This document shows positions 51,732-54,968 of a stretch of DNA of 64,000 nt, piece by piece. The position numbers and the translations under genes were made by a program. Below the pieces are notes generated by a model that saw only the letters and a program-made list of their open reading frames with translations, ran no database searches and was not told the DNA's origin. Source of the stretch: Methanotrichaceae archaeon. Its GTDB lineage: Archaea; Halobacteriota; Methanosarcinia; Methanotrichales; Methanotrichaceae. Where the stretch lies: the NCBI GenBank assembly GCA_013178225.1, contig JABLXE010000003.1, forward strand, positions 186,001 through 250,000, in the 5' to 3' direction. Numbering within the stretch: position 1 is the stretch's first letter; each line of letters starts with the position of its first letter.

Positions 51732-52775
51732 TTACGCTTTCTCAGCAGAGGTCCGGTAGCTCAACTTCAGTTCAGGCTCTGCCCAATCGAACGCCGGAGG
51801 GAATTTCCGCTTGCGTCCGGAAGACTTCAGAGCCTGGACCACCACCGGCACGGTGACTGTTGCATCCGAGAAGACCTGTACCTTGCGGGCTTCTTTGGCC
51901 ACCTTTCCCCAGGAGACCGCCTCCTCGAAGGTGCAGCCCGAGAGACCGCCCCAGTGCGGCGAGTCCGCAGTGTACTGGATGGCGTAGCTGTGCCCGCCGG
52001 AATAGACGCCTATCAGCTCGGCTATCACCTCGGTCTGCTGTATGAAGTTCTTGGGAACTCCACCGCCGATATACACGACGCCGGTCTTGGTGGACTTCTC
52101 GACCATCTGGGTGATCTCGTCCACGTCCTTTATCTGGTCCACCATGACCCTGTGCCCTTCGCGATAGGCCATGACCATACCTATTCCCCAGGAGCTGTCA
52201 CCCAGAGCGGGCACGAAGATCGGAACCCCGGCCCGGTGAGCCGCGCCCAGAATGGTGGTGTCGGGAAGCCCCTTTCCGGCCATATGCATCAGCTCGCGCG
52301 AAGAGTACCGGTAGCCAGGATCCAGTTTCTTCACGAAATCGGAGATGTAGTTGTCTGCCCTGTGAAGCTCGACCTCGGAGACGAAGACATCGTAGATCCT
52401 ATCGATCTTGCACTCGTTTAGATAAGCATCATCGGCACAGGCGCTCCCCTGGAAGTGGACGATCCCCAGACCCTCGCACAGATCGTGGAACAGGTTGGCT
52501 CCGGTGCTGACCAGACAATCTACCATTCTCTCCCTGATCAGGTAGGCTATGAACTCCGCAAGGCCCGCGGGAACCATGGCCCCCGCCAGGCCCAGGAATA
52601 TGGTCGCCTCCCCGTCCAGCATCTTCTCCCATATCCTCAGGGACTGCCCCAGCTGTCCACCCTGAAAGCCCATCTGGCCCATGTCTTTCACCAGGTCGTA
52701 AACGCCCCTCTCCTTCATGGATATGGTCGTCCGGACCTTTTTGCCATCGCAGATGAAGCTATGACCGTGATCCAT
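51732..52775 (-). CDS. dys: Deoxyhypusine synthase
   Basis: 347 residues. Family motifs in order: GFQGGQLGQSLRIWEKM, IFLGLAGAMVPAGLAEFI (NAD-binding), CLVSTGANLFHDLCEGLG, VYIGGGVPKNFIQQ, and the active-site lysine in SWGKVAKEA (K291). It transfers the aminobutyl group of spermidine to a lysine of aIF5A, the first step of hypusine formation. It is divergent from the arginine decarboxylase gene, whose product leads to agmatine and polyamines, so the gene pair unites precursor supply and use. Confidence 0.95.
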   Translation of the reverse strand: MDHGHSFICDGKKVRTTISMKERGVYDLVKDMGQMGFQGGQLGQSLRIWEKMLDGEATIFLGLAGAMVPAGLAEFIAYLIRERMVDCLVSTGANLFHDLCEGLGIVHFQGSACADDAYLNECKIDRIYDVFVSEVELHRADNYISDFVKKLDPGYRYSSRELMHMAGKGLPDTTILGAAHRAGVPIFVPALGDSSWGIGMVMAYREGHRVMVDQIKDVDEITQMVEKSTKTGVVYIGGGVPKNFIQQTEVIAELIGVYSGGHSYAIQYTADSPHWGGLSGCTFEEAVSWGKVAKEARKVQVFSDATVTVPVVVQALKSSGRKRKFPPAFDWAEPELKLSYRTSAEKA

Positions 52776-52870
52776 AATGATTCCTCAAAGCAGTTGGCGG
52801 AAATAGCGCCCGCAGACGTTATAAGATTATGCTTTTGGGGACCGGGGCAGCAGTTCATTTTGCATCAAGG

Positions 52871-52880
52871 TTTATATACC
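52871..52880 (+). promoter_or_regulatory. TATA box of the speA leader
   Basis: TTTATATACC lies 157 bp before the speA ATG. Transcription would start near 52902, giving a leader of about 125 nt that contains the hairpins and upstream ORF described separately. Confidence 0.6.
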
Positions 52881-52915
52881 AAAACCGACCCTAAAGCAAA
52901 GTTCGATACGACTTT

Positions 52916-52939
52916 CCCCAGCCTCCCTGGGGGAGGTGA
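52916..52939 (+). promoter_or_regulatory. Alternative hairpins masking a Shine-Dalgarno in the speA leader
   Basis: CCCCAG (52916-52921) can pair with CTGGGG (52927-52932), or CCTCC (52922-52926) can pair with GGAGG (52932-52936). The two are mutually exclusive. The second hides the GGAGGTGA ribosome site of the upstream ORF. This layout resembles a translational switch. Confidence 0.4.
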
Positions 52940-52942
52940 CGG

Positions 52943-53041
52943 GTGCGGGCATCTTATCGACAGTTCGGGTCATGGCAAGGAGAAAGATGGAGAGCGAGGG
53001 TTTTGGCAAAAGCCGAGGGCAGATTAAATGTGGAAGGCTGA
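52943..53041 (+). CDS. Arginine-rich upstream ORF overlapping the speA start
   Basis: A GTG at 52943, six bases after GGAGG, opens 32 codons ending TGA at 53039-53041, inside the first codons of speA in another frame. Six of 32 residues are arginine (positions 2, 6, 15, 17, 19, 27), including the cluster ERWRAR. Because speA encodes arginine decarboxylase and has only a weak ribosome site of its own, a translation-coupled or attenuating leader peptide is plausible. No homologue is known to me. Confidence 0.4.
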   Translation: MRASYRQFGSWQGERWRARVLAKAEGRLNVEG

Positions 53042-54968
53042 AGATTCGATAGATCTCTACGGAATAGAGAACTGGGGCAACGGCTACTTTTCAGTAAATG
53101 ATAAAGGAAATATCGTCATACTTCCAAATAAAGACAGCTATCAGTACGCGGATGTAATGGAGCTGATAGAGGAGATAGCGGATAACAAAGACCTGGACTT
53201 TCCCATTCTCCTGCGCTTTCCCCAGATCCTAGAGGACAGGATCAACGAGATCACCGGCTCGTTTCTCTCGGCAATTGAGGAGTTCAAATATCAGGGGACC
53301 TATCATCCGGTCTTTCCCATGAAGGTCAATCAGAGAAAGGAGGTAATCGAGTACATCCTCAAGTACGGGGCCAAGTACAATATCGGTCTGGAGGTCGGGA
53401 CCAAGGCCGAGCTGCTGGCAGCCCTATCTCTGGGCCCCCCCAAAGAGGCTCTGCTGGTGTGCAACGGCTACAAGGACCAGGATTACCTGCGGCTGGCCCT
53501 GAGCATTCACAATGTCAATAATATAATCATAGTAGTGGACCTCTTCGAGGAGATCTTCGATATCCTGAAGTATTCGAGACAGATGGGAGTCATCCCCAGG
53601 ATAGGCATGCGGGTCAAGCTCTTCTCCCGCGGCTCCGGGCGCTGGGTGGAGTCCGGCGGCGAGTCCGCCAAGTTCGGCCTCTCCACCGCCGAGGCCCTGG
53701 AACTGATGAAGATCTTGAAAGACAACAACATGGGAGAGAGCCTGAAGATGATTCACTTCCACATCGGCTCTCAGATCACCGACATTCGCACCATCAAGAA
53801 CGCCATGAACGAGGCAGCCCGCATCTATGCCAAGGCCAGGAAGATCTCCGACATCGAGTATCTCAATGTGGGCGGCGGGCTGTCGGTGGACTACAACGGC
53901 TCCAGCACTGCTACTCCCTCAAGCGCCAACTACACTTTGCAGGAGTACGCGAACGACGTGGTGTACACCGTGCAGAAGATATGCGAGGAGGAAGGCGTCC
54001 CCTGTCCGACCATCGTCTCAGAAAGCGGCAGAGCCATTGCCGCCTACCATAGCATGCTGATCTTCAAGATCATCGGCCGGAAGAACGCCAAAGACTCTTT
54101 TCTGAAGCCTCCCAAAGAGGAGGACCCCATTCAGATCGAGGACCTGTGCTGCGCCTTCAAGGAGATCGACATCGAGAACTACAAGGAGCATTATCACGAT
54201 GCCCTGCAGTACCGGGACGAGCTTTACAACGCCTTTAACCTGGGAAACATCGGGCTGGAAGAACGGGCCAAGGGAGAGACACTGTTCTGGATGGTGTGCA
54301 AGAAGGCCGCGTTTTATGCCAAGCAGGCAGAGGACGAGTCCGAGGAGTTCCTGGAGCTCAAGAAGCTGGTGAGCCAGAAGTACATCGGCAACTTCTCGCT
54401 GTTCCAGTCTGTGCCCGATATGTGGGGAGTGGAGCAGATCTTTCCCACCATTCCACTCCACCGCCTGGAGGAGATGCCCAGCGAGCACGGCACCATCGTC
54501 GATCTGACCTGCGACTCTGACGGCGAGATCAAGCGCTATGCGGGAGACAGCGAGGGACGGGAGTACCTGGAGATGCACACTCTAGTCGAAGACGAAGATT
54601 ATTACCTTGGAATCTTCCTGCTGGGTGCTTACCAGGACACGCTGGGGGATTTTCACAACCTGCTGGGCAGCGCACATGAGGTCCACATAATGGTGGAGGG
54701 AACCGAGTGGTGGATCTGCCAGAAGGTGGAGGGAGACACCTGCCGCAAGCTGCTGGACTTCTTCAACTACGAGACCAAGGACTACATCTGGGAGATAATG
54801 GACCGCTGCGTGGAGAAGAAGCAGTGTATAGACAAGAAGGGGCTCGAGCAGATCGAGTCTCAGCTCAACCGCACCCTCAAGGGCTATACCTACTTCATCG
54901 ACAAGCCTAACGGAGACGGACGGGCTAGGGTCCAGGAAGCTGAAACGGAGCCACCCTGCCGCCGCTAG
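53028..54968 (+). CDS. speA: Biosynthetic arginine decarboxylase, PLP-dependent
   Basis: 646 residues of the alanine-racemase-fold class. Motifs: IENWGNGYFSVNDKGNI at the start, the PLP lysine K99 in FPMKVNQRKEV, HFHIGSQITDI, LNVGGGLSVDY and ESGRAIAAYHSMLIF, with a conserved C-terminal region. It converts arginine to agmatine for polyamine synthesis. Most archaea use a pyruvoyl-type enzyme, so a bacterial-style SpeA suggests acquisition by gene transfer. The C-terminal end (ARVQEAETEPPCRR) is variable. It is divergent from deoxyhypusine synthase. Confidence 0.93.
   Translation: MWKAEDSIDLYGIENWGNGYFSVNDKGNIVILPNKDSYQYADVMELIEEIADNKDLDFPILLRFPQILEDRINEITGSFLSAIEEFKYQGTYHPVFPMKVNQRKEVIEYILKYGAKYNIGLEVGTKAELLAALSLGPPKEALLVCNGYKDQDYLRLALSIHNVNNIIIVVDLFEEIFDILKYSRQMGVIPRIGMRVKLFSRGSGRWVESGGESAKFGLSTAEALELMKILKDNNMGESLKMIHFHIGSQITDIRTIKNAMNEAARIYAKARKISDIEYLNVGGGLSVDYNGSSTATPSSANYTLQEYANDVVYTVQKICEEEGVPCPTIVSESGRAIAAYHSMLIFKIIGRKNAKDSFLKPPKEEDPIQIEDLCCAFKEIDIENYKEHYHDALQYRDELYNAFNLGNIGLEERAKGETLFWMVCKKAAFYAKQAEDESEEFLELKKLVSQKYIGNFSLFQSVPDMWGVEQIFPTIPLHRLEEMPSEHGTIVDLTCDSDGEIKRYAGDSEGREYLEMHTLVEDEDYYLGIFLLGAYQDTLGDFHNLLGSAHEVHIMVEGTEWWICQKVEGDTCRKLLDFFNYETKDYIWEIMDRCVEKKQCIDKKGLEQIESQLNRTLKGYTYFIDKPNGDGRARVQEAETEPPCRR

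Follow-up and report, generated by a model that had tools for sequence, protein, structure and literature searches.

An upstream open reading frame overlapping the start of the arginine decarboxylase gene is conserved in Methanotrichaceae and probably steers ribosomes to it

The speA locus and its leader

Methanotrichaceae is a family of acetate-eating, methane-producing archaea. The window, a stretch of 64,000 nucleotides from a genome of this family, carries on its forward strand speA, which encodes a biosynthetic arginine decarboxylase of 646 aa (positions 53028..54968; NF003763 at 765.7 bits and TIGR01273 at 681.2 bits, above cut-off). Its ATG at 53028 is immediately preceded by an in-frame TAA. 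A deoxyhypusine synthase gene (51732..52775, reverse strand) diverges from speA, and in most genera it is the divergent neighbor, with a promoter region common to two polyamine/hypusine genes; no deoxyhypusine synthase match was found beside speA in genus g6 (L011-L015, L044) or at L024, L025, L006 and L039.

The speA promoter is marked by a TATA box, TTTATATA, at 52871..52878 on the forward strand. Most Methanotrichaceae speA leaders have such a box, with a stretch like CTCTAAAGCAAAGTTCGATACGA after it. Given the position of the box, the speA mRNA is predicted to start near 52900 (approximately 52898-52902). This lies upstream of 52945, the position beyond which, according to the earlier sequence-only reading of this DNA, a transcript start would speak against a regulatory leader. 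The literature searched yielded no mapped transcript starts for Methanosaeta, and a terminator scan of the leader region found nothing; a sigma-70 promoter scan was set aside, the model not being relevant to archaea.

Within the leader, an upstream open reading frame (uORF) of 32 codons begins with GTG and spans 52943..53041 on the forward strand, in the frame that lies one base back from that of speA (f2). Its stop codon, TGA at 53039..53041, takes its T from the end of speA codon 4 (GCT) and its GA from the beginning of codon 5 (GAA); the uORF overlaps speA by 14 nt out of frame. The uORF is preceded by the Shine-Dalgarno (SD) sequence GGAGGTGA (52932..52939, forward strand), with a duplex energy of -15.8 kcal/mol, compared with -6.4 kcal/mol for the GAGGG (53015..53019, forward strand) that serves as a weak speA SD and lies inside the uORF, both calculated with an assumed archaeal 16S tail. 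The elements named in the sequence-only reading are therefore present as described: the GTG-started frame with its six Arg codons, the ribosome site ahead of it, and the termination inside speA in another frame; its description of the speA ribosome site as poor is fair for the window.

The same cannot be said of the hairpin switch proposed there, in which CCTCC:GGAGG pairing hides the uORF SD and a competing CCCCAG:CTGGGG stem frees it. The CCCCAG:CTGGGG pairing continues into CUUUC:GGAGG to give a single 10-bp stem, CUUUCCCCAG / CUGGGGGAGG (52912..52936, forward strand; -15.2 kcal/mol), which buries the uORF GGAGG and is not conserved as sequence, and the alternative CCUCC:GGAGG pairing (-7.5 kcal/mol) hides the very same GGAGG. 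Since both stems bury the uORF SD they do not form an on/off pair, and they are absent in relatives. No mutually exclusive hairpins hiding and freeing a ribosome site or terminator were found in the window, and the window leader folds no more stably than its shuffles (z = +0.78).

Two other readings of the frame were considered and rejected: a second GTG frame, opening at 52936 (38 aa, ending at 53052), whose start was not found in that frame in relatives, and a fusion of the uORF with speA through a +1 frameshift, set aside because the peptide lacks conservation and the codon just ahead of the TGA varies. When the window leader was shuffled preserving dinucleotides, 29% of the shuffles contained an open f2 frame with a start of any kind between -110 and -60. 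The uORF is thus unremarkable in the window genome alone, and only comparison with relatives lifts it above chance.

Conservation of the frame and of its stop codon

speA was found in 47/50 Methanotrichaceae genomes, representing all 11 genera, and the comparison covered 47 distinct speA leaders. One speA, L023 (G014:C2:2307392-2309277), gives two separate matches (residues 1-519 and 522-633) with a TGA inside the second, and is possibly broken or split. An f2 uORF with its stop at +11 is present in eight of the 11 genera; within g2 (Methanothrix), L003 and L008 have it as well. It starts at -85 in the window genus, g4 and g9, at -91 in g8, at -94 in g7 and g11, and, in the larger sets, at -88..-94 in g10 (nine species) and at -106 in g6 (six species). 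The start codon is ATG in every uORF-bearing leader but that of the window, and SD-like sequences precede most of these starts, being weak in some g10 members (L019).

As a chance baseline we used shuffles and within-gene columns in place of a genome-wide rate of such uORFs. The leaders are largely unalignable between genera, so that the genera can be treated as approximately independent observations. Dinucleotide shuffles give a per-genus chance of an f2 uORF of 0.14-0.36, about 0.2 expected, and at that rate finding it in 8/11 genera has a probability of roughly 3e-4 (hand calculation). Counting stop codons across the uORF in 16 leaders that carry it gave 0 in its own frame and 25 and 26 in the other two; these leaders were selected for carrying the uORF, which makes the shuffle test the fairer one. 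Indels in g10 are multiples of three inside the uORF, but not in the leader upstream of it.

The stop codon provides a separate line of evidence, as the uORF TGA can form only if speA codon 4 ends in T. Each of the 22 uORF-bearing species whose gene is complete has GCT, GTT or ATT at this codon, the amino acid varying, and among 327 columns it is the only one with T throughout in these 22 species, third-position T averaging 15%. With one species per lineage it is again the only 9/9 T column, out of 377, the next best reaching 8 and 7. At four-fold sites divergence from L001 is 50-67%, and the further genus pairs compared give 54-68%. Of about 24 leaders without this uORF, six (L007, L024, L032, L037, L042, L043) have a broken stop, against 0/23 with it (p ~ 0.01 by hand, with phylogeny ignored), and in Methanothrix leaders without a stop at +11 the next stop comes at +68 or +71. 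We take this pattern as good comparative evidence for translation of the uORF and for the importance of its ending near the speA start. Trp is fixed at speA codon 2, making a 4-nt ATGA overlap impossible, and +11 would be the first stop that the conserved speA start permits in f2.

The encoded peptide behaves differently. The uORF pN/pS ratio is 1.02 in g6 and 1.30 in one g10 set, with 0.57 and 0.35 in two small sets, and the peptide as judged by these ratios is not conserved. From this comparison the uORF is real and conserved in Methanotrichaceae through its start region, its frame and its stop, the last held in place by a base of speA that could otherwise vary, and selection on frame and stop suggests that it is translated. 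The expectation that relatives would share the leader's features was thus borne out for these three elements and not for the Arg codons or the stems.

Conservation is not universal. There is no f2 uORF in g3 and g5, and it has been lost in part of Methanothrix, whose speA leader is unstable and where L033, L034 and L050 carry a uORF in another frame with its stop at -8 of speA. L004 and several other Methanothrix leaders are shorter by about 90 nt; comparison of L004 with L033 suggests that the loss was a deletion between GGTTTCATGG direct repeats, both of which remain in L033. In L031, L032 and L043 the leader is lost, leaving the TATA box at -42, a 5' UTR of about 16 nt and no clear SD. Eight Methanothrix leaders (L004, L007, L033, L036, L037, L039, L040, L042) contain at -19..-2 a five-codon ORF of the form ATG-GRG-AAG-NNN-RRG-TGA, which stops one base ahead of the speA ATG (e.g., MEKTE-stop, MGKAK-stop) and may be a shortened coupling ORF or merely an SD-rich spacer. 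The losses in Methanothrix and the absence from g3 and g5 indicate that the uORF device is not essential.

How the uORF may act on speA

That the start site, frame and stop are kept, and the peptide and Arg codons are not, suggests that the uORF probably acts by steering ribosomes to speA rather than by sensing arginine. The explanation we favor, with a probability of about 0.5, is that the uORF is translated, works largely independently of its peptide, and is coupled to speA by termination-reinitiation. Ribosomes would initiate about 90 nt upstream of speA at the uORF's own SD and finish 14 nt inside speA, from where they would reach back to the speA AUG and SD, about 8 nt behind the P site, and reinitiate. 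In traversing the uORF they would open any structure over the speA start. The output of speA would be set by how often the uORF is initiated, with the control point at the uORF SD, at the end of a structured 5' leader.

Several features are consistent with this proposal. Start codons and SD-like sequences are present at the uORF, and it stops at or near the main start: TGA at +11..+13 in the eight genera and in L003 and L008, and a stop at -8 in L033, L034 and L050. In g6 a GCGAUGG:CCAUCGC hairpin is predicted to enclose the speA SD and start, and a ribosome on the uORF would open it, which counts for coupling. Against it stand the 14-nt overlap, longer than the usual 1-8 nt, the two small sets with pN/pS below 1, and the speA SD of g10, which is strong on its own (-11 kcal/mol) and argues against coupling being required. 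Hiding of the speA SD, moreover, is not above shuffles over 21 leaders (mean z 0.44). Occlusion of the uORF SD is likewise at shuffle level over 21 leaders (mean z 0.17); the exceptions to shuffle-level SD hiding are L010, L020 and L034. Translation, reinitiation, positive coupling and the uORF SD as the regulated step are inferred.

A rather unlikely alternative is that the uORF is inhibitory: ribosomes on it would mask the SD and start of speA and reduce its translation, the stop at +11 would do no more than limit the damage, and less uORF initiation under some conditions would give more speA. Repression accounts equally well for a translated frame and predicts the locked stop just as coupling does, if long out-of-frame reading is harmful. 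It gains from the window uORF SD being far stronger than that of speA, from the strong g10 speA SD sitting inside the uORF, and from the Methanothrix lineages L031, L032 and L043, which deleted the uORF and kept speA. Were the uORF only repressive, however, a stop ahead of the speA SD would suffice and none near the start would be called for, yet most leaders with a uORF have its stop at +11 or -8. Sequence fits either sign of effect on speA, and between the two we favor coupling.

The sequence-only reading had instead suggested that arginine supply or polyamines could act through the peptide. Such sensing, by slow decoding of Arg codons or by arrest of the nascent peptide through arginine or polyamines, we consider improbable. 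Six Arg in the window uORF and 5-8 in many others (range 0-8) speak for the idea, as does the way Arg codons often overlie the speA SD. Part of this Arg, however, is supplied by the AGGAGG of the speA SD read in f2, and outside the SD zone the enrichment is not significant (32.6 versus 24.8 expected from composition, genus-weighted). Low-Arg uORFs (0-2) are common (L003, L005, L033, L034, L049, L050), with 0-2 Arg in Methanothrix and 1 in L005; in one close set 14 Arg codons were kept and 14 lost, and the larger sets show no purifying selection. Neither a conserved peptide nor a conserved run of Arg codons, as would mark an amino-acid-sensing leader, was found among the relatives, and a peptide free to change speaks against this proposal. 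What survives of the broader suggestion, that a uORF in an archaeal speA leader affects speA translation, has strong comparative support, apart from the Arg signal and the stem switch.

Another reading, in our estimate highly improbable, makes the leader mainly a structured RNA, riboswitch-like or protein-binding, with the open frame secondary. Its support comes from g6 (L011-L015, L044), where over -160..0 of speA the leader is conserved as nucleotides without codon bias: the uORF stretch differs by 2.8%, compared with 26.7% at speA four-fold sites, about ten-fold more conserved, and one compensatory change, C-G to A-U, occurs in the uORF start hairpin. This leader is a candidate structured RNA, and the nucleotide constraint, the compensatory pair and the predicted speA-start hairpin suggest that RNA structure adds to the constraint in g6. 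Against it, no fold common to genera was found among the leaders compared, and an Rfam 15 covariance search of 52700..53200 returned no match apart from a sub-threshold engA hit inside speA at chance level. Such a reading also leaves the open frame and the locked stop unexplained. That these are chance, functionless ORFs in a purine-rich leader is hardly credible, for although such a frame has a single-genome probability of about 0.15-0.35 and is missing from g3, g5 and part of Methanothrix, chance does not account for the same frame in eight genera together with the codon-4 T.

Relation to known systems and significance

In bacteria and eukaryotes, uORFs with a regulatory role are well documented. 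Termination-reinitiation coupling has been proven in archaea, in Haloferax (PMC6728339), and coupling by short uORFs is known in bacteria from iraD (PMC5574718) and ppe2 (PMC11260477). The speA uORF resembles that of Escherichia coli iraD, which is also short, with a stop overlapping the main start region and the uORF initiation site as the controlled step, as proposed here (PMC5574718); it differs in that iraD is bacterial, is controlled by CsrA via the coupled short ORF and has an SD shown to be hidden, whereas the speA uORF is archaeal with a 14-nt overlap. The ppe2 uORF of Mycobacterium tuberculosis is likewise out of frame with an overlapping stop; it lies under a B12 riboswitch and must be translated for expression of the main gene, as coupling would have it for speA (PMC11260477), but the speA leader has neither its 4-nt AUGA overlap nor its riboswitch aptamer. 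Archaeal, like the speA uORF, are the overlapping gene pairs of Haloferax volcanii, in which the upstream stop also falls at the downstream gene start (PMC6728339, PMC10666635). There the overlaps are mostly 4, 1 or 8 nt, longer ones being rare (PMC10666635), and the pairs encode full-length proteins at -4/-1/-8 nt, in contrast to the short, non-conserved peptide and -14 nt of the speA uORF. The leader ORF of enterobacterial speF (PMC6386406; named SpeFL in PMC8429421 and others) also precedes the gene of a polyamine-route amino acid decarboxylase; its peptide is specific and is read in response to the amino acid. The speA uORF, in contrast, has a non-conserved peptide, and the evidence lends no support to an amino acid signal.

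In the literature searched we found no archaeal example of a family-wide regulatory uORF with backward reinitiation; the archaeal reports there were small-ORF catalogues (e.g., Methanosarcina mazei Ribo-seq, PMC11456600) and studies of coupled gene pairs with reporters. The synonymous-base test used here is applicable wherever a uORF overlaps a gene, even if the peptide lacks conservation and homology-based uORF finders fail. As a tentative proposal that goes beyond coupling itself, polyamine or arginine status might set speA through uORF initiation and backward reinitiation across 14 nt, family-wide, with the information lying only in the start, the frame and a stop locked by a synonymous base. 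The speA uORF, present across a methanogen family with its stop under measurable selection, offers a concrete, testable archaeal case.
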